DNA from: a virus
DNA: 24,472 bases
Direction: 5' to 3' (one strand)
IMG/VR virus record: IMGVR_UViG_3300028388_002687
Location: 1 to 24,472 of that record
Positions 6,583 to 14,416 of the stretch are shown piece by piece. The notes below the pieces were generated by a model. It saw only the letters and a program-made list of their open reading frames with translations. It did not search any database and was not told the origin of the DNA. A program made the translations under genes and the position numbers. The first letter of the stretch is position 1. The number at the start of each line of letters is the position of its first letter.

Positions 6583-8466
6583 TTAGTTGGGATATGCGCC
6601 TGTAGCAAAGGTGCCATCATCCTCAATAATAGCGAGCGCTGGATTTGCCGCCACACCAACAACGCTATTGTCTGCGCCGTGCGCACCCACGTAACCTGCT
6701 GGTGGTGTCTGCTTGCTGCTTTTGATAAGCGACTGGAAGCTGCCTGTAACCCGTGCAATTTGGGATCGGATAAGGCCAGCAAACAAAGACACATTTCGCG
6801 CCCCGTTTTCCGAAAAGCCCACCCCGACTGTGCCACCAACAATGTTGAATGTGCTGTCTGTCACCGAGGATTCCACAAATAGGCCTTGATACGACGCGCC
6901 AATCCCGTGGATTTGGCTTACAAAATATCCAACACCGTCTTTCAAAACCATGTGGTTTACGTGACCGAATAGGCCCCAATTTGCAAACTCACACGCCTTT
7001 AGGTTTCCATCGCACCACAAAAGCTGCGCTTGGGGCTCGCCCGTGCCGTTTTCAGCGTAAAGATTTTTGATTGAAAGCCCCTGAATTAGGGCCGTCCCGC
7101 TGCCCGTGTAGCGCGTCGTGTCTGCTGAAAGAACGGGGCCAGCATTGTTTTGTGTTAGGATTTTCTGAATAGTCAACATCTTAATGTTGCGAACATCGAA
7201 AATAGGGTCGCCTGACAAAGTTCCGTAGGCATAGCCCGCGTCGCTATACGACGCATCTCCGCAAGAGTTAATATAGAGGCGATCATAACCAACATCGTTG
7301 CAGCTATCGCCGTCAAAAATGTGCGACTTTTTATTGCCGATAGAATGGTGAACCCCGAAATGTGCCTCCTGCACAAAGTCAAAATTTTCGCCAACTTCAA
7401 AGTTTGCAACCAGCATGTTGTTGAAGTATTCATGCAGGCTTTCCTGCCAGTTAATCCCTGTAACCCCCGCATTGGCCGAGCCTACAAACGCAACGTCTTT
7501 GATCCCACCACCAAACGGGCGGGGGAATGTGTTGGTCCCGTGATCGTAAGCAATGCCGCTGGTCGCCGTGAATTTGACAACCGCGCCGTCAATGTCAGTG
7601 CTCCAATTCGCACTGCCATATTCAGGGCGACCATTTAAGCGCCAACCCGTGCCAACAATAGGAACGCCAGCGGGATTTGTCAGGTGTGTAACCTCGACGG
7701 AAAGATCAATCAAAACGGAAAAGAAGCCCCCGAGCGCATTTTCAGCGGCGCACCAGTCGATCGCGGCCTGCACTTTGGCGGTTTCGTCGCCCGCGCCCGT
7801 TACGCCGAATTGCTTTAAGGAAATCAAGCCATTGTTTGAAACGGCCACGACGCCATCGGCACTAAGGTCATTTGTGACACTTTGAGCGCCCGTCTTGGCG
7901 CTGTTGGTTTCGTAAAAAAGGCCGTCCATGCTGAATTTAACGCCGTCACCTTGGGCGATTGCCTTGGTGGCGTTTGCAGGGTTTCGATCGGAAAAAGCGA
8001 TTGTTTTTGCGTCAAGGGCGGCAACATCATTCGCCAAATTCGACGCGCCAGAAATGACAAAGCCTGTGCCATTATACACGGCCTTATAAACCTCACCCGC
8101 AAGAATTTGTGAGGCCCCCACGGCCCCCACAACGCCCGCAATATTTGTTAAAATAGGCTTTTCGCCCAAGTTGTTGACGTTGATAACTGCGGCCCCATTA
8201 ACGTCGGCGTGAAATTCAATCCAAAGCGACATTTTGTCAGAGTAGCCGACATATTCGCTTGCGGTAGTGACCGCAAAAACGTCGCTTGAGCCGAGAGTCG
8301 TTAGCGCCTGGTTGTCCTCCGCATATTTCGCAATATCAGAACACATCGACCGCATAGCATTATTTACATCGCGGCGGGGCATCCCCTCTTGAATGCCGAC
8401 GGTTGAAACGCCGTCACCAACTGCGACATTGGAATCCGAAATTTTTTGATATTTGTTGACGCTCAT
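6583..8466 (-). CDS. tailspike-like protein with pectin-lyase beta-helix
   Basis: The 627-residue protein likely binds, and may degrade, a host surface polysaccharide. The N-terminus (about 1-150) has the GMPRRDVNNAMRSM block seen in many podoviral fibre and spike head-binding domains. Near 220 the segment LKQFGVTGAGDETAKVQAAI is the typical entry to a Pectate_lyase_3-type right-handed beta-helix, which the repetitive Gly/Asn/Ser-rich strands to about 560 support. The last 60 residues may be a trimerisation or cap region. No catalytic residues can be assigned, so depolymerase activity is inferred. ATGA overlap with the transglycosylase gene. The gene is visibly AT-rich: 7141-7200 has 20 G+C of 60, against 40 of 60 at 11041-11100, which suggests exchange. 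Confidence 0.75.
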   Translation of the reverse strand: MSVNKYQKISDSNVAVGDGVSTVGIQEGMPRRDVNNAMRSMCSDIAKYAEDNQALTTLGSSDVFAVTTASEYVGYSDKMSLWIEFHADVNGAAVINVNNLGEKPILTNIAGVVGAVGASQILAGEVYKAVYNGTGFVISGASNLANDVAALDAKTIAFSDRNPANATKAIAQGDGVKFSMDGLFYETNSAKTGAQSVTNDLSADGVVAVSNNGLISLKQFGVTGAGDETAKVQAAIDWCAAENALGGFFSVLIDLSVEVTHLTNPAGVPIVGTGWRLNGRPEYGSANWSTDIDGAVVKFTATSGIAYDHGTNTFPRPFGGGIKDVAFVGSANAGVTGINWQESLHEYFNNMLVANFEVGENFDFVQEAHFGVHHSIGNKKSHIFDGDSCNDVGYDRLYINSCGDASYSDAGYAYGTLSGDPIFDVRNIKMLTIQKILTQNNAGPVLSADTTRYTGSGTALIQGLSIKNLYAENGTGEPQAQLLWCDGNLKACEFANWGLFGHVNHMVLKDGVGYFVSQIHGIGASYQGLFVESSVTDSTFNIVGGTVGVGFSENGARNVSLFAGLIRSQIARVTGSFQSLIKSSKQTPPAGYVGAHGADNSVVGVAANPALAIIEDDGTFATGAYPN

Positions 8467-9257
8467 AGCGATAGCCCTTTGTTTTGGTTGAAAGTCGGCA
8501 TTGAGCGCAACTTATCAAGAATTTGAGATAAATCAATTTGACCGCCCGTGCCCACTGGTGGCGGGGCAACTGGCCGACCTTGATCGAGATTTGAAAGAGC
8601 CGCGCCCACGCCCGCAAGGCGGTCTTGCATAGTGAGCGGCGCGGGGGCCTGCTGATCCTGTGTGCCGCCCTGTGGTGCTGACTGCCCCGAAATTCGAGCC
8701 AGCGCCGCTTGGAAAGCGTCTTGAGGCACCGTTGCGGCTTGCGTCTCTTGCGGCGCGGCGCGCGTTGCGGGCCCTGCGCCGCCGACCAACCCGTCGGCCT
8801 TTTGCATCCAGATATTTGCAAACTCGCCCGCCGTCATATTCATGTTGCCGCCATTAAGGCGAACCGCGTCGGCCCCAACAATATCGACGGCCCGTGCGTT
8901 TGGGTCACGCAAGAGGCGAGACGCGCCGCCCCCGCCTTGTTGGTGGGCAAGGTAAAGCTCGCCCGCTGTCGGCTCGCGACCAAGAACGCCACGCAATCGG
9001 GAGGCATTATCCCGCGCCAGGCGAGCCCCCGCATCGGCTGCTTGTGCGGGGTCAAAACGATTTTCGAGACCATAATCCCGAGCCGTCGCGTCGATAAACT
9101 GATAAAGTCCGCCCGCGCTCGATCGGGGGTTTTGCGCGCGAGGGTTTCCACGAGATTCAATGTGAGCAATCGCCCGCATTGCATTTGGGTCAATGCCGTA
9201 ACGATTGGCCGCTGCGACGATAGTTTGGTCAATGTCGGGTGTGAATGAAAATCCCAT
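8463..9257 (-). CDS. virion-associated lytic transglycosylase (SLT domain)
   Basis: The 264-residue protein carries a soluble lytic transglycosylase domain at about 8-115: catalytic Glu34 in AHIESRGNP, the SSAGGLYQFIDATA block at 46-59 and ELYLAHQQGG near 100-109. It would open the peptidoglycan locally during DNA entry. No signal peptide is present, and the gene sits among ejection-type proteins rather than in the lysis cassette. The C-terminal part (about 160-264) is Ala/Gln/Pro-rich and holds QDRLAGVGAALSNLDQGR at 211-228, which recurs at the start of the 405-aa protein encoded at 11732-12949. The stop overlaps the tailspike start; two bases separate its ATG from the upstream stop. Confidence 0.85.
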   Translation of the reverse strand: MGFSFTPDIDQTIVAAANRYGIDPNAMRAIAHIESRGNPRAQNPRSSAGGLYQFIDATARDYGLENRFDPAQAADAGARLARDNASRLRGVLGREPTAGELYLAHQQGGGGASRLLRDPNARAVDIVGADAVRLNGGNMNMTAGEFANIWMQKADGLVGGAGPATRAAPQETQAATVPQDAFQAALARISGQSAPQGGTQDQQAPAPLTMQDRLAGVGAALSNLDQGRPVAPPPVGTGGQIDLSQILDKLRSMPTFNQNKGLSL

Positions 9258-9259
9258 GC

Positions 9260-11731
9260 TTACCTCGTAAGTGCTTGAGCAATAGCGGCCTCGCCACCTT
9301 GCATGATTTGAACGATCTCGCTTGGCTCGTAACCCGCCTCGGCCAAACGTCGCAAAATTGCGGCGCGATTGTCGGCCTCGGGTCGGGTGCCAACCATCGC
9401 AACGGGCGGCATTGTGGCCGCGCCGACTTGCTGCGACGTGCGCTCGGCAATCGTGCGGCCTTGCTGCATCCGCTCACCCAATTCACCAAAGGCGTTGAGT
9501 TGTTGAACGCGAGGTCCGACATTTCCCGTCTCGGTCAACGTGCGGGCAAGATATGCGCGAATTTCGTCCATTGCTTGCTCTTGCGTCTGGCCGCCAGCTT
9601 GAGCCACGCGACCAGCCATGCTCGATAGCGTGCCCGTGACGCCCTTGTCGATCAATTCGCCAGATACGCCGCCAGGGACAAGCTCGCGCAATGCTTGCTC
9701 GGTTTGAAGGCGTGGCGCGGTCTGCGACCCTGCGACGATACGCATAGAAAACGCCTGCTCGGCCTCGTCTAGCATCCCAAAGAGCCGTTGAGCCTCGTCG
9801 GGGCCAAGGATCGAGGCCACCTTTTCGCGGGCCGCTGGGGCCGTGAGTTGGCGCAAGGGTGCGAGAACCGATTGCGGGTCGCTGTCGGTGCGCGTTAATC
9901 CTCGGCGCACGTTTGCCATTGCGTCGTCGATCGAGCTGCGCAAGCCCTGGCGCACGCGGGCCAATTCTGTTTCGCCCAAGCCGTCGAGGGCCTCGGCCAT
10001 TTGCTCGCGAGTAAATTGAGGCCGTAACATATTGCGGCCAAGCTCGACCGCGTTGCGCGAGGCGATCGCGTCGCCCCCCAACTGCAAAGCCTCGCGATAT
10101 GCGGGCACGGCCTCGCCGAGGGCGTCGCGTAAAGCTCGAGCTTGAGACGCGGCGCGCACGCCTTGGGGTGTCATAACCCCAAACGGGTTTTTCGAGTTTT
10201 CGGCGATCGTGTCCAAGCCTTGCTTGAGCGCGTTGATCTGGCGCACGTCTGGCATTTGATCAAATACGACCTCGCCCGCGTCCGAAATGGACGCTCGAAT
10301 TTGTTGGTTGCCAACCCCAAGATCGCGCATTTGCGCATTTGCCTCTCGCACGGCGGCTTGCAAGTCTGTCGGATCCACACGGCGCATTGCCGCCTCGATA
10401 TTGCGGCCCGCATCGCTGGCATAATCAATCGGCGACGCAAACGCGGCCTCGTATGCCTCGCGGCGAGGTGTGGCCGATTCCTGCATGATCTCGCGCATTG
10501 TTGCCCGAGGGCCTTGCGGTGCGCCAAGAACGTCGTCGAGCGTTGCCGTAAAGCGTCCGCTTGCGCCCTCTACAATTTCCTCGACGCCTTGCCGTGCGAT
10601 TGCCGCGCTCTGGCCTGGCGCATTTGCCACGGCATCAAGCAAGCCCCGCGTTGAGGGGCCAAGGTTGCCCAAAGCTGCGCTGTCGCCCGCTGCGGCGATA
10701 TTTGAGGCCGCATATGGCGCATCTGCGCGCACCCGATCGGCCACGAGGCCCGCAACGTCCTGTTGCATTCCCAACTCGCGAGCGGCGGCACGAGCACTTC
10801 GCCCCGCCGCTGCGTTGTAAAGCGTGCGACCGAGGCCACCAAGGGCAGGAATTGCCGCGCCGATACCGCCACCGAATGCCGCGCCCCATAGGCCGCCCGC
10901 TTGGGCGTTGTCGAGCCGTGAACCTTCCTCACCCTGCCCTGCACCATAGATCGCGCCCTCGGCACCGCCGAGTCCAACGCCCGCCAGCAACCCGCGCCCG
11001 ACCTTTGAAAGCGTCGAGCCCGCGCCGATCACTCGGGGGGCATTTGCAATCGCGATTGGTGCCGTCGTGAGAGCGCCGCCAACCTGCGCCGCAGTGGCGC
11101 GGCCAGGGTAGGCCGTCGCATACGTGTCGCGCATTGTGTCGACTTTTTCGTTTGCCTCGTCACCGCCGACCAAACCGAAAGCCTCGTCGACGTAAGAGCC
11201 AACAAAAGGCAAACCCGTCAAGAAATTAGCGGCCAAGCCGCCGCGTCGAATGTTAGCGTTTTCGGGCATAGAAAGGGTTAGGCGCATATCGTCGCGAGCC
11301 ACGCCGCTCAAGTCGCCGTCGTCGAGCATTTCCTCGACCTGCGATTGGTCGGAAATGTTGCGACCTGGGCTCGTGTAAACCAAAGCCCCGCTGTTGGGGT
11401 TGCGCAAAACAACGCCCTCGCCAATGACCTTGACGGCCTCGGAAAAGCCTCGCTCGGCATATGCGTCGATCGAGCGAGGGCCGCCGTGGCGCGTTGGTTG
11501 CAAAAGTGCGGCGGGAATTTCAACACCACCTTGAGACGGCGCGGCGAGCGCGGGGGGCAATCGGGCCGCCATTGGGGCCTCGGGCTGTTGTGGGGCGGCT
11601 TGCGGTGCCTCGGGGGCGGCTTGCTGGCGCTGGGCTTGGATCATGCCCGCAATGCGCTGCGCGCCCGCCCGATCACCCGCCGCATGGGCATTACGCAAGG
11701 CTTCCATGAGTTGCTCTTGTGTAAACTCCAT
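9260..11731 (-). CDS. large internal virion / DNA-ejection protein candidate, 823 aa
   Basis: This is the largest product in the window. The N-terminus (FTQEQLMEALRNAHAAGDRA) resembles a short helical motif at the start of many phage ejection proteins, followed by a Gln/Pro/Ala-rich linker. Residues about 160-310 hold several Gly/Ala-rich hydrophobic segments (for example GLLAGVGLGGAEGAIYGAG) that could insert in membrane. The rest is mainly charged helix. The position between the transglycosylase and the 405-aa protein matches podoviral ejection clusters, whose proteins leave the capsid and form a conduit across the envelope. No enzymatic motif is seen. The function is inferred from composition and context. 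Confidence 0.62.
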   Translation of the reverse strand: MEFTQEQLMEALRNAHAAGDRAGAQRIAGMIQAQRQQAAPEAPQAAPQQPEAPMAARLPPALAAPSQGGVEIPAALLQPTRHGGPRSIDAYAERGFSEAVKVIGEGVVLRNPNSGALVYTSPGRNISDQSQVEEMLDDGDLSGVARDDMRLTLSMPENANIRRGGLAANFLTGLPFVGSYVDEAFGLVGGDEANEKVDTMRDTYATAYPGRATAAQVGGALTTAPIAIANAPRVIGAGSTLSKVGRGLLAGVGLGGAEGAIYGAGQGEEGSRLDNAQAGGLWGAAFGGGIGAAIPALGGLGRTLYNAAAGRSARAAARELGMQQDVAGLVADRVRADAPYAASNIAAAGDSAALGNLGPSTRGLLDAVANAPGQSAAIARQGVEEIVEGASGRFTATLDDVLGAPQGPRATMREIMQESATPRREAYEAAFASPIDYASDAGRNIEAAMRRVDPTDLQAAVREANAQMRDLGVGNQQIRASISDAGEVVFDQMPDVRQINALKQGLDTIAENSKNPFGVMTPQGVRAASQARALRDALGEAVPAYREALQLGGDAIASRNAVELGRNMLRPQFTREQMAEALDGLGETELARVRQGLRSSIDDAMANVRRGLTRTDSDPQSVLAPLRQLTAPAAREKVASILGPDEAQRLFGMLDEAEQAFSMRIVAGSQTAPRLQTEQALRELVPGGVSGELIDKGVTGTLSSMAGRVAQAGGQTQEQAMDEIRAYLARTLTETGNVGPRVQQLNAFGELGERMQQGRTIAERTSQQVGAATMPPVAMVGTRPEADNRAAILRRLAEAGYEPSEIVQIMQGGEAAIAQALTR

Positions 11732-12949
11732 TTAATTGCCCCCCAAATAAAGGTTGAGCAAATCGTCGTCGCTCATGTCTGTTGTCGCCGCTGGTGACTG
11801 GCCGCCACCATTTGCACGCTCAATCACACCCTTGAGCTCAAGCAATGCGGCGCGGAAATCGTCGGCGCTTTGTGCGGTATTGAGGCGAGCGATTGCGGCC
11901 TCGGCTTTCTGGCCCTCGATCTCGGTAATTTGCCCGCCACCCTTGAGGCTTTCAAATGCCTGCAAGAATGCTTGCCCCTGGATTTGCTGGATCCGCGACC
12001 GTGCACGGGCGGCATCGGGGGCGAGCGGCCCCATGTATTGAGTGATCGCGCCTGTTGTGCCGACCGCGCTGTCGAGGCCAGGGTCGGCCAATAGACCGTC
12101 GATCGTGGCGAGCATAGAGTCCGCTTGTGCGCTGCCCTTGTCTGCGCCCTCGACTTGCTCAACGACACGCCCCTCGGCCTCGGTGCCCGCCAATGGCACA
12201 ACGCGGGGGCGCTGGCCGCCACCTGGCGCGGGCTCCATGACGTGCGCGCCTGTCTCGTCGTAAACGAAAACGGTGCCCGTCGGGGCGTCGCCGAATTGGC
12301 TGGATTCGTCGCCCGTGTTGATTGTGATATTTTGCCCGCCGCCGCCAATGCTTGTAATCTTGCCGTCGGGGGCTTGCTGATATGCGCCCTCGGGCAACCC
12401 AAGTTGCGCCACCTCGGGCGCGGTCAATACGCGGTGCGAGGGGTCGGGTGCGCCTTGATAGATGACGGTGCCGTCGATCGGATTAACGAGCGTGCCGCCG
12501 ACATTTACGCCCGCAACGGGGGCGGGTGCTGGCGCGAATACCGTCGAGGAAATGACCTGTTGCGCCTGATCTGGCGGCAACGACATAAGCACGACCTGCT
12601 GCTCGGGCGTGAACCGATCAAGGACGCCGCTCGCCTGCAATTGCTCGCGAAATGCGATCGCGGGGTCGGGTTCTTTGAAAATGGTTTCGGCGATCAAGGC
12701 TTGCGCGGCCTGTGGCGGCATATTGGCAAGCATCTGACGTTGCTCGGGCGTAAAACGTGACAAGAGCGCGGGGTCGCTGAGGCTATCGCGCAATTCTTCA
12801 GCTTGGGTGCGCTGTCGGATACTGTCACGAACCCCGCTCAAATCAGCGACGCGGCCTTGATCGAGGCCCGCAAGGGCTTGCCCAATCCCGCCGAGGCGAT
12901 CTTGAAAGTCGGGGTTTTGAAACCGTGTTTTGAGTGCTGCAAAATCCAT
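11732..12949 (-). CDS. putative internal virion / ejection protein with duplicated N-terminal repeat, 405 aa
   Basis: The N-terminus has QDRLGGIGQALAGLDQGR at 16-33, nearly the same as the transglycosylase C-terminus. Residues 53-91 and 100-138 are two copies of a 47-residue-spaced helical repeat with LxRFTPEQ and PPxxAQ motifs. A Pro/Gly-rich beta middle (about 140-260) follows. The C-terminal domain (about 300-385, FLQAFESLKGGGQITEIEG) resembles a conserved domain of phage virion proteins that I know only by pattern. The gene abuts the 823-aa gene, and its ATG overlaps the upstream stop (TAATG). A DNA-ejection role is inferred from the cluster. Confidence 0.6.
   Translation of the reverse strand: MDFAALKTRFQNPDFQDRLGGIGQALAGLDQGRVADLSGVRDSIRQRTQAEELRDSLSDPALLSRFTPEQRQMLANMPPQAAQALIAETIFKEPDPAIAFREQLQASGVLDRFTPEQQVVLMSLPPDQAQQVISSTVFAPAPAPVAGVNVGGTLVNPIDGTVIYQGAPDPSHRVLTAPEVAQLGLPEGAYQQAPDGKITSIGGGGQNITINTGDESSQFGDAPTGTVFVYDETGAHVMEPAPGGGQRPRVVPLAGTEAEGRVVEQVEGADKGSAQADSMLATIDGLLADPGLDSAVGTTGAITQYMGPLAPDAARARSRIQQIQGQAFLQAFESLKGGGQITEIEGQKAEAAIARLNTAQSADDFRAALLELKGVIERANGGGQSPAATTDMSDDDLLNLYLGGN
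12536..12793 (-). repeat. two tandem copies of a 47-codon repeat inside the 405-aa protein gene
   Basis: Residues 54-91 and 101-138 align without gaps at an offset of 47. Shared positions include L-x-RFTPEQ (63-70 and 110-117), the Pro-Pro pair (78-79 and 125-126), Ala-Gln (82-83 and 129-130), Ile86/133, Thr89/136 and Phe91/138. The DNA copies have diverged, so this is an old duplication. Confidence 0.7.
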
Positions 12950-13995
12950 TATAGAGCCCCGTAATTTACGCTCAAAAGCCCGTCGGGCCCTTTTTGAACG
13001 GCTTTCTTTTTCTTAACGTCTTGAGCCATAACGCCCATGAGGGTTTTACCTTCAAACTCGGGCGCAACGCCGTCCTTGTATTTGTAAGTATAAATCGGCG
13101 TGCCGTCGTCCATTTCGCCGACCCGTTTTTCGTCCTCTTTGAGCCGCTCGTCGGAAAATAGCGACGCGACTTGCAAGCCCGCGCCAAGAATGCCCATGAG
13201 GCCAGGGCTTTGCGATTGCGTCGATTGCGACGAGCCGCCGCCCACCGCTGTTGACATAAGGCTGTTGAGCGCACCCGATTGAGCGCCTTGGTAGGCGGTG
13301 CCGAGCCCCTGTTGCGCTTGTGCAAGACCGAGCTGGCGGCCAAAGTTTTGACCGTATGCCGTATTCATCAAGTTTGCGGCTTGCAGCTCTTGGCCTCGAT
13401 CCGCTTGGAAAGCGTCTTGGCGCATCCCCGCACCCTGCAACGCTTGCCCGAAAGCCTGCGATCGTGCGCTTTGAGCCGCTTGCCCCGCCGCGAGGGCGCG
13501 ATCCTCGCCTTGCTGGAATGCCTGATTTTCGACTGCGCCGAGCCCTTGGGACAGGCCACGAGCCAAGTTTTGTTGGTGCAATGACGAGCCCGTCATGCCC
13601 GAACCTGCAAAAGTGCTGTTGATCGCGGGCATAATGTCGGCAATCGTGTTTTGCTTGACCTGATCGAAAGCCGCCGAGCGCAAATAAGGGTTTTGGGCGC
13701 GGGTCGTCGTGTCGACAAAGCCTTGGTCGAGCGTCGGCCCTTGGCGAGTTGTTGCGTCGAAATACGGGTCGGATTGCGTGCCCGCCTGCATTTGCCCCAT
13801 GAGGGTTTGCGCGACGCCAGGGGCATAGGCGGGTTGCCCCGTCACGCCCTGCAATGTCTGGCCCGCTTGGGCTAGTGCTTGCTGAAATTCTGGCGTGATC
13901 GTGCTCGCGGCGCGATCTTGGAACGTCTGAAACGTCGCCGCATCTGGAATCCAAGGCGTGACCGCGTTTGAGGTTGTTGTTTTCGATTTACCCAT
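12949..13995 (-). CDS. virion protein with C-terminal S74-like intramolecular chaperone segment
   Basis: Residues 1-275 are Gln/Ala/Gly-rich and helical with no transmembrane domain or enzyme motif. The last about 68 residues resemble the peptidase S74 (endosialidase-type) auto-chaperone: SDERLKEDEKRV at 281-292, IYTYKYK (301-307), LMGVMAQDV (319-327) and a final GLLSVNY block. Ser281 and Lys286 have the spacing of the known Ser/Lys cleavage dyad. In fibres this domain aids trimer folding and is then cut off. Here it sits on a non-fibre protein in the ejection region, so it may help assemble a tail or internal component. Two unrelated halves are possible. The function of the body is unknown. 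Confidence 0.68.
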   Translation of the reverse strand: MGKSKTTTSNAVTPWIPDAATFQTFQDRAASTITPEFQQALAQAGQTLQGVTGQPAYAPGVAQTLMGQMQAGTQSDPYFDATTRQGPTLDQGFVDTTTRAQNPYLRSAAFDQVKQNTIADIMPAINSTFAGSGMTGSSLHQQNLARGLSQGLGAVENQAFQQGEDRALAAGQAAQSARSQAFGQALQGAGMRQDAFQADRGQELQAANLMNTAYGQNFGRQLGLAQAQQGLGTAYQGAQSGALNSLMSTAVGGGSSQSTQSQSPGLMGILGAGLQVASLFSDERLKEDEKRVGEMDDGTPIYTYKYKDGVAPEFEGKTLMGVMAQDVKKKKAVQKGPDGLLSVNYGAL

Positions 13996-14416
13996 TTTCT
14001 TTAAGCTCCAAAATGACGTGTGTCTTTACCATGCCGAATTTCCGCAACACCTTTTCCCAACCTGGGCGGGTGACGGCTTCGAGCTTGGTGGAACCTAAAG
14101 AATGTGACCAAACGCGAATTGTCGCGAGTAATTGGCCTGCCCACTGCTCATAATCTCGCCCCGAACAATGCGAGATAACGCAAGTCTTTTTCGCATCATC
14201 CTGCAAAAAGGTCAACGCACAAGCCAAAACCTCGGCCCCATCAAGAACCACCCAAACCTGATAACCCTCGGCCATAATGTCGGAAACAAGTCGATTAGGC
14301 TCAAGAGAGCCGCCCGACCGATCGCAAAAGCTGGCGAGGTGTGGCGCAAGGCGATCTCGCCAATCGTCAAAATCTCTAGCCGTCACCGCCTCAATCACAA
14401 GTGCGCTGTTACCCAT
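13988..14416 (-). CDS. GNAT-like acetyltransferase-fold protein, 142 aa
   Basis: The pattern of strands and helices, and the C-terminal RPGWEKVLRKFGMVKTHVIL block (from about residue 117), resemble GNAT-fold proteins of phages, in which a Gly-Trp and a following hydrophobic strand close the fold. A clear acetyl-CoA loop (R/Q-x-x-G-x-G/A) is not visible, so it may bind a different ligand or be inactive. GAGGG lies eight bases before the ATG. Both ends overlap neighbouring genes (eight bases with the S74-like gene, 22 with the upstream gene), so it is embedded in the virion operon. Possible roles are modification of a virion or host protein. The family call is moderate; the function is unknown. 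Confidence 0.5.
   Translation of the reverse strand: MGNSALVIEAVTARDFDDWRDRLAPHLASFCDRSGGSLEPNRLVSDIMAEGYQVWVVLDGAEVLACALTFLQDDAKKTCVISHCSGRDYEQWAGQLLATIRVWSHSLGSTKLEAVTRPGWEKVLRKFGMVKTHVILELKENG

Follow-up and report, generated by a model that had tools for sequence, protein, structure and literature searches.

A short segment shared by a stand-alone transglycosylase and a predicted gp20-like ejection protein of one phage

Two proteins encoded in the ejection cluster of a single virus record, whose 24,472 bases constitute the window analyzed here, share a segment of 18 residues that is identical at 13 positions. One is a small stand-alone transglycosylase (TG), which carries the segment in the tail behind its catalytic domain, and the other is a 405-aa protein related to P22 gp20, which carries it close to its N-terminus. 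Taken together, BLASTP, the ranking of 18-mers and shuffled controls indicate that the match is real and that the two segments most likely descend from one short ancestral piece. Purifying selection acts on the gp20-like copy, and for the copy in TG the principal readings are a docking helix, which we regard as possible at somewhat short of even chances, and a relic of mosaic recombination, a tentative alternative that we rate lower.

Genomic setting and protein assignments

The window carries SU10-type portal, terminase and capsid genes, followed by an ejection cluster on the minus strand in the order gp7-like protein (348 aa), gp20-like protein (405 aa), an 823-aa protein occupying the gp16 position and TG (264 aa). 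The phage is short-tailed, with TG and the channel-type 405-aa protein probably being injected ahead of the DNA. The genes and domains concerned are:

8463-9257, minus strand: TG gene (P0001), 264 aa; SLT domain PF01464 (E 2.6e-14), phrog_22520 (E 2.4e-49), phrog_342 (E 6.7e-15)
8784-9257, minus strand: SLT catalytic domain, TG residues 1-158, from AlphaFold2 and a fold match
8466-8783, minus strand: TG residues 159-264, a tail of low confidence; short helices predicted at 179-189, 210-221 and 243-251
9260-11731, minus strand: 823-aa protein in the gp16 position, lying between the two motif genes; phrog_5880 (E 1.5e-25), gp16-type N-terminus
11732-12949, minus strand: gp20-like ejection protein gene (P0002), 405 aa; phrog_2534 (E 1.7e-19)
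11810-12163, minus strand: residues 263-380 of P0002, the gp20-like C-terminal domain; from tblastn and phrog_2534 ("released from the phage upon host infection")
12949-13995, minus strand: 348-aa gp7-like protein whose end is an S74 chaperone (Peptidase_S74); matches phrog_4287 ("DNA ejection protein", E 1.8e-18); candidate common partner

AlphaFold2 predicts the SLT block of TG very well, to about residue 158, pLDDT exceeding 90 for most of it as far as about residue 155; its best fold match is phiKZ gp144 (3bkh). The profile phrog_342, an "internal virion protein with endolysin domain", matches TG residues 8-206 with profile positions 14-214 of 1235, and is outscored by other SLT families. 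As in T7 gp16 (phrog_342), an extended stretch of comparable length lies behind the SLT domain; unlike T7 gp16, TG is a separate 264-aa ORF placed after the 823-aa gene rather than a domain of a large gp16, and part of the gp20-like protein recurs in its tail.

Searches with the 405-aa protein by tblastn recovered matches in 50 phage records, and the 40 matches listed span only about residues 251-390. Like P22 gp20 and T7 gp15-type proteins (phrog_2534) it possesses the C-terminal domain at residues 263-380, and as in P22 its gene lies between the gp7-like (phrog_4287) and gp16-position (phrog_5880) genes. Unlike in P22 gp20, the N-terminal half that bears the motif is covered by none of the 40 listed P22-type matches from the 50 records. 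By its sequence the 405-aa protein is thus P22 gp20-like in its C-terminal domain and a predicted ejection protein.

Several further features of the cluster were observed. Residues 1-37 of the 823-aa protein (11621-11731; MEFTQEQLMEALRNAHAAGDRAGAQRIAGMI...) are 56-70% identical to the starts of proteins in 14 records of Vibrio, Sodalis and Salmonella phages, the annotated ones under or beside gp16 or DNA transfer names; the rest of the protein is unlike these proteins, and residues 1-37 appear to be another short module, exchanged or conserved, at a protein end. The 405-aa protein repeats the pattern RFTPEQ..L...PP..AQ.(I)..T.F twice, at residues 65-91 and 112-138 (12536-12757). A related contig encodes a 553-aa gp7-like S74 protein (L003:2444-4102) with internal repeats that match parts of the 348-aa protein of the window. 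Adjoining the gp7-like gene is a small acyltransferase-like gene (13988-14416), with a weak match to phrog_25629 only; in phages BUCT555, PfAn1 and RHph_I3_18, annotated GNAT or acyltransferase genes occur beside or near an S74 or gp7-type gene. A separate search with a fragment of phage PfAn1 returned PfAn1 itself as the sole match.

The shared segment and the question of chance

The first-pass annotation had drawn attention to an 18-residue motif in the TG tail and at the start of the 405-aa protein, and its positions, strand and 13 of 18 identities are confirmed here:

8574-8627, minus strand: TG copy, QDRLAGVGAALSNLDQGR, residues 211-228, from translation and BLASTP; overlaps the predicted helix 210-221
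12851-12904, minus strand: gp20-like copy, QDRLGGIGQALAGLDQGR, residues 16-33 of the 405-aa protein, from translation, BLASTP and relatives
8505-8534, minus strand: TG residues 242-251, DLSQILDKLR, where the similarity resumes, from BLASTP; predicted helix 243-251

Both copies are encoded on the minus strand, and the plus strand at the same positions translates to unrelated sequence. BLASTP of TG against the 405-aa protein yields 30.8 bits (E = 3e-5 as a single comparison), aligning TG residues 210-251 with residues 15-45 at 20 of 42 columns identical and 11 gap columns; after the gap the similarity resumes with DLSQILDKLR in TG and DLSGVRDSIR in the 405-aa protein.

Among the 300 pairs formed by 25 chosen genes of the window, the motif pair supplies the best 18-mer (13 identities; runner-up 10). 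When TG was shuffled 3,000 times the best 18-mer never exceeded 11 identities, and the same ceiling held over all pairs when all 25 window proteins were shuffled 60 times. The raw gapped Smith-Waterman score of the two proteins is 72, a value reached by 8 of 2,000 shuffles, and another pair in the window reaches 71; as the gapped score is unremarkable window-wide, the strength of the match sits in its ungapped core. Over 4,672 same-strand gene pairs from 101 loci, which are not independent, since some of the contigs are nearly identical to one another, 13 identities are exceeded by 17 pairs (15-18 of 18), located in 9 loci, and after the motif pair the next-best pairs have 12. These 17 pairs are unannotated and, as read from their sequences, seem to be neighboring tail-fibre-like paralogues.

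Convergence or chance resemblance between flexible, helical linkers rich in Ala, Gly and Gln is an improbable explanation. The motif is certainly of low complexity, its three commonest residues making up 50-61% of the 18 positions; the attainment of the gapped score in shuffles, and a primase-like ORF that fits the motif pattern accidentally, speak for this explanation as well. Against it stand the ungapped core, unmatched in either set of shuffles, the DQGR and QDRL ends of the motif, which are not of low complexity, and the renewed similarity at DLS.

Selection on the two copies

Viral contigs yielded two close relatives of the gp20-like protein, termed L002 and L003 (91% and 74% identity, respectively, in the best segment). 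The region of interest is:

12824-12949, minus strand: N-terminal 42 residues of the gp20-like protein, identical in the window, L002 and L003 (0 residue changes)

Across these 42 residues the three pairwise comparisons of the window, L002 and L003 show 12, 13 and 17 synonymous codon differences and not a single residue change, on account of which the gp20-like copy can be said to be under purifying selection. Within the 18 codons of the motif itself there are 3 silent differences from L002 and 8 from L003, again with 0 residue changes. Between the window and L002, dN is 0 in residues 1-42 as against a dN/dS of 0.10 in the remainder; residues 101-150 are likewise nearly unchanged (1 difference). 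Fisher p-values for the constraint on residues 1-42 are 0.0007, 0.0003 and 0.037, and are optimistic because the cut at residue 42 was set at the first difference.

When the TG copy is compared with the gp20-like one, differences affect 11.5 of 14.7 synonymous sites (pS 0.78) as opposed to 7.5 of 39.3 replacement sites (pN 0.19), and the longest exact run of DNA is 11 bases. A crude neutral simulation at this divergence leaves at most 4 of 18 residues identical, which implies that the residues were kept while the codons were randomized. With synonymous sites saturated and residues kept, the pair is no recent DNA repeat. The one known TG copy is compatible with either of two histories: both copies have been held at the protein level, or TG captured a gp20-like segment that had already diverged.

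Distribution of the motif

The TG copy is known from the window only; the L002 and L003 contigs end before the TG gene. A motif model run against 1,547 genes from 106 records gave, outside the window, L002 and L003, a best score of 6.0 bits (shuffles, 8.5 bits), and a best score of 6.1 bits in 2,244 further ORFs from Bradyrhizobium-type and prophage loci. Co-occurrence of the motif in other ejection clusters, which the earlier annotation had proposed to look for, was therefore not recovered in these genes and ORFs, none of which rises above the shuffled maximum. Within the window the model picks only two genes, the gp7-like and 823-aa proteins being without the motif.

Conservation in homologues is divided: both close relatives of the 405-aa protein retain the motif, while it is absent from L009, the TG homologue closest to that of the window (65-71% identity across the SLT part), and from the further stand-alone TG tails that were compared. 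Stand-alone forms account for 18 of 75 TG proteins, and among the 17 tails that could be tested, a redundant set, only that of the window has a segment in common with its own genome above the between-genome background.

Pattern scans were consistent with this narrow distribution, with the proviso that strict patterns and a small profile could miss strongly diverged forms of the motif. In viral contigs the strict pattern DRLxxhGxALxxLDxG retrieved 3 stretches, namely L002, L003 and the primase-like ORF, and the looser QDRLxGhGxAL retrieved 15, two of them L002 and L003; in genome contigs DRLxGhGxALxxLD retrieved 42. At E 1e-3 none of the ORFs in the 55 new pattern loci matched P0001, P0002 or P0003; 17 of the 55 sites have the motif in their longest open frame, and the recurring groups were Rhizobium, Pseudomonas and Sphingomonas. 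A genome scan with P0002 gave 49 pattern-matching stretches, none of which was confirmed. Searches with P0002 in 396 and 397 genomes of two alphaproteobacterial orders gave matches in 2 and 11 genomes; profile comparison identifies a gp20-like ORF in 11 of the resulting 13 regions, while none of the 13 has an SLT match and nothing in them exceeds 6.1 bits with the motif model. The three phage records obtained by tblastn with the 47-residue N-terminus (E 4-9) were read as chance. The motif thus appears, in the sequences covered, only in a small phage lineage, and there is no support for a general tag of phage injection proteins or for a module common to ejection clusters at large. Of the claim that the two ejection-region proteins share a common module, what stands is that both genes lie in the ejection cluster, that the segment exceeds chance, and that its gp20-like copy is constrained.

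The N-terminal region in wider gp20-like families

Immediately beyond the motif, the gp20-like protein shows a remote likeness to another family:

12674-12856, minus strand: residues 32-92 of the 405-aa protein, remotely like a Bradyrhizobium-phage-type module in the same gene position, from hhalign

The hhalign score for residues 32-92 is 36.1 (P 3.2e-5, probability 73%), with 60 column-shuffled controls at or below 19.6. Some of the Bradyrhizobium-type proteins have, directly before this module, a helix like FLDRLSQGFQSIGNGG, which is not conserved among them. Recognition of the motif as one instance of a common gp20-like N-terminal helix pair was considered and rejected: the alignment falls in the expected place and scores 16.16 versus a control maximum of 16.23. 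A combined profile of Bradyrhizobium-type proteins with L006 and L192 matches residues 32-93 and not residues 1-50 (14.5 versus a control of 15.6), and the L006 segment LLGGIGDALQTVD, similar by eye, is not significant (89 of 1,000 shuffles).

What the TG copy might do

We tentatively favor, at the somewhat less than even chances stated above, the view that both segments are copies of one module serving as a shared assembly or docking helix on a common partner. The module would comprise a helix, a linker and a second short helix, in all about 30-42 residues; it would be native to the gp20-like N-terminus and would also have come into the flexible tail behind the TG catalytic domain. Through it the gp20-like subunits may bind a common partner, be it the gp7-like protein, the scaffold or the gp20-like oligomer itself, and TG may rely on that helix to get into the capsid or to be seated, with its wall-cutting domain, on the ejected tube. 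That the shared piece binds one partner which TG and the gp20-like protein both require would be the most economical functional reading, and a shared function of the two copies is what we infer from their sequences. A comparable role is played in T7 gp16 by the stretch that comes after its transglycosylase domain and binds gp15: PMC8954989 describes a transglycosylase domain at residues 1-156, followed by residues 157-228 as a "molecular tape" cementing the gp15 tube.

Structure prediction is compatible with this picture in part. The TG copy coincides with a short predicted helix (210-221) within a poorly ordered tail, and helix 243-251 coincides with the resumed similarity. The AlphaFold model of the gp20-like protein is poor (mean pLDDT 51, with short helices at 13-18 and 22-27), lending no support to a docking surface, and was dropped as structural evidence on account of its quality. 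The Eisenberg moment of the first 14 motif residues ranks 140 of 251 and 129 of 392, and is near the bottom for all 18; the motif is thus not specially amphipathic, which counts against the simplest picture of a docking helix. The single TG copy, the lack of the motif in L009 and the failure of remote gp20-like profiles to match the motif itself weigh against the docking reading as a whole. Docking onto the portal, suggested at first along with a core, would be conjectural and is not supported here; for entry of P22 gp20 PMC4992974 points to gp7 and the scaffolding protein, loss of gp7 strongly reducing gp20 in virions and the scaffold being needed for entry of all ejection proteins.

Set against the docking helix is the possibility, a doubtful but substantial one, that recombination copied or captured a gp20-like N-terminal segment, originating in this phage or in a diverged relative, into the TG tail, where it is a tolerated linker without shared function, the gp20-like copy being constrained for reasons of its own. 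TG tails indeed vary freely among homologues, and the cluster has other duplications, as in residues 65-91 and 112-138 of the 405-aa protein and the repeats within L003's gp7-like protein; were the donor a diverged gp20-like gene, capture would equally give saturated synonymous sites with kept residues. On the other hand, a TG copy left free since an old duplication should have decayed, and the pattern scans of viral contigs yielded no donor of intermediate sequence.

Short segments common to the internal proteins of one phage have a precedent in the capsid targeting sequence of T4, which is N-terminal in several internal proteins and is cleaved off. A packaging tag of this kind, routing internal proteins into the prohead via the scaffold, would suit two proteins that are both predicted to be internal or ejected, and would accord with the dependence of P22 ejection proteins on the scaffold. 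However, unlike the T4 sequence, the segment occurs in only two window proteins and at differing positions, N-terminal in one and internal to a C-terminal tail in the other, while the gp7-like and 823-aa proteins lack it; such a tag is accordingly quite improbable, and the earlier proposal of a packaging tag for internal proteins is, in a general form, not supported. Least probable of all is a helix acting on membranes or lipids that TG and the gp20-like protein would each employ on its own in the periplasm, for which the short predicted helix in ejected proteins and the Gly/Ala-rich core may be cited, and against which the low helical moment and mixed charge argue.

Relatives provide a further perspective on the coupling of the two functions. 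A single ORF joins the SLT domain to the gp20-like C-terminal domain in L042:7626-9878, in L044:7236-9584 (L044/L045) and in Stenotrophomonas phage BUCT555, so that the two functions are physically coupled elsewhere. These fusions couple the same two domains as the window, which unlike them has separate ORFs; the motif model recognizes no motif in L042, L044 or L045, the best 18-mer identity being 5 in L042 and 7 in L044. Fusion and separation of SLT and gp20-like functions thus both occur among relatives. Fission of such a fusion as the origin of the motif is no more than speculation, none of the fused relatives covered by the motif model showing the motif and the 823-aa gene intervening. In its most specific form, which we consider unlikely though conceivable, the docking reading would have the stand-alone TG mimic the gp20-like N-terminal helix and occupy the same site, whether on the gp7-like protein, on the scaffold or on the ring of gp20-like subunits; the enzyme would then be borne by certain subunits or positions of the tube. 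If this mimicry were true, a hydrolase would be attached to the ejectosome without gene fusion.

Significance

The shared segment is real and slightly surprising, and is a variant on the known mosaic build of ejection proteins. According to PMC8954989, hydrolase domains swap between gp15 and gp16 homologues, and should the recombination reading be right, the present case would be a neat but ordinary instance of such mosaicism among ejection genes. The open-licence papers searched yielded no report of a shared segment of this type. The residue-level recognition and capsid entry of P22-like ejection proteins are poorly known, and a pair of proteins with one short constrained segment offers a small candidate for an ejection-protein contact.
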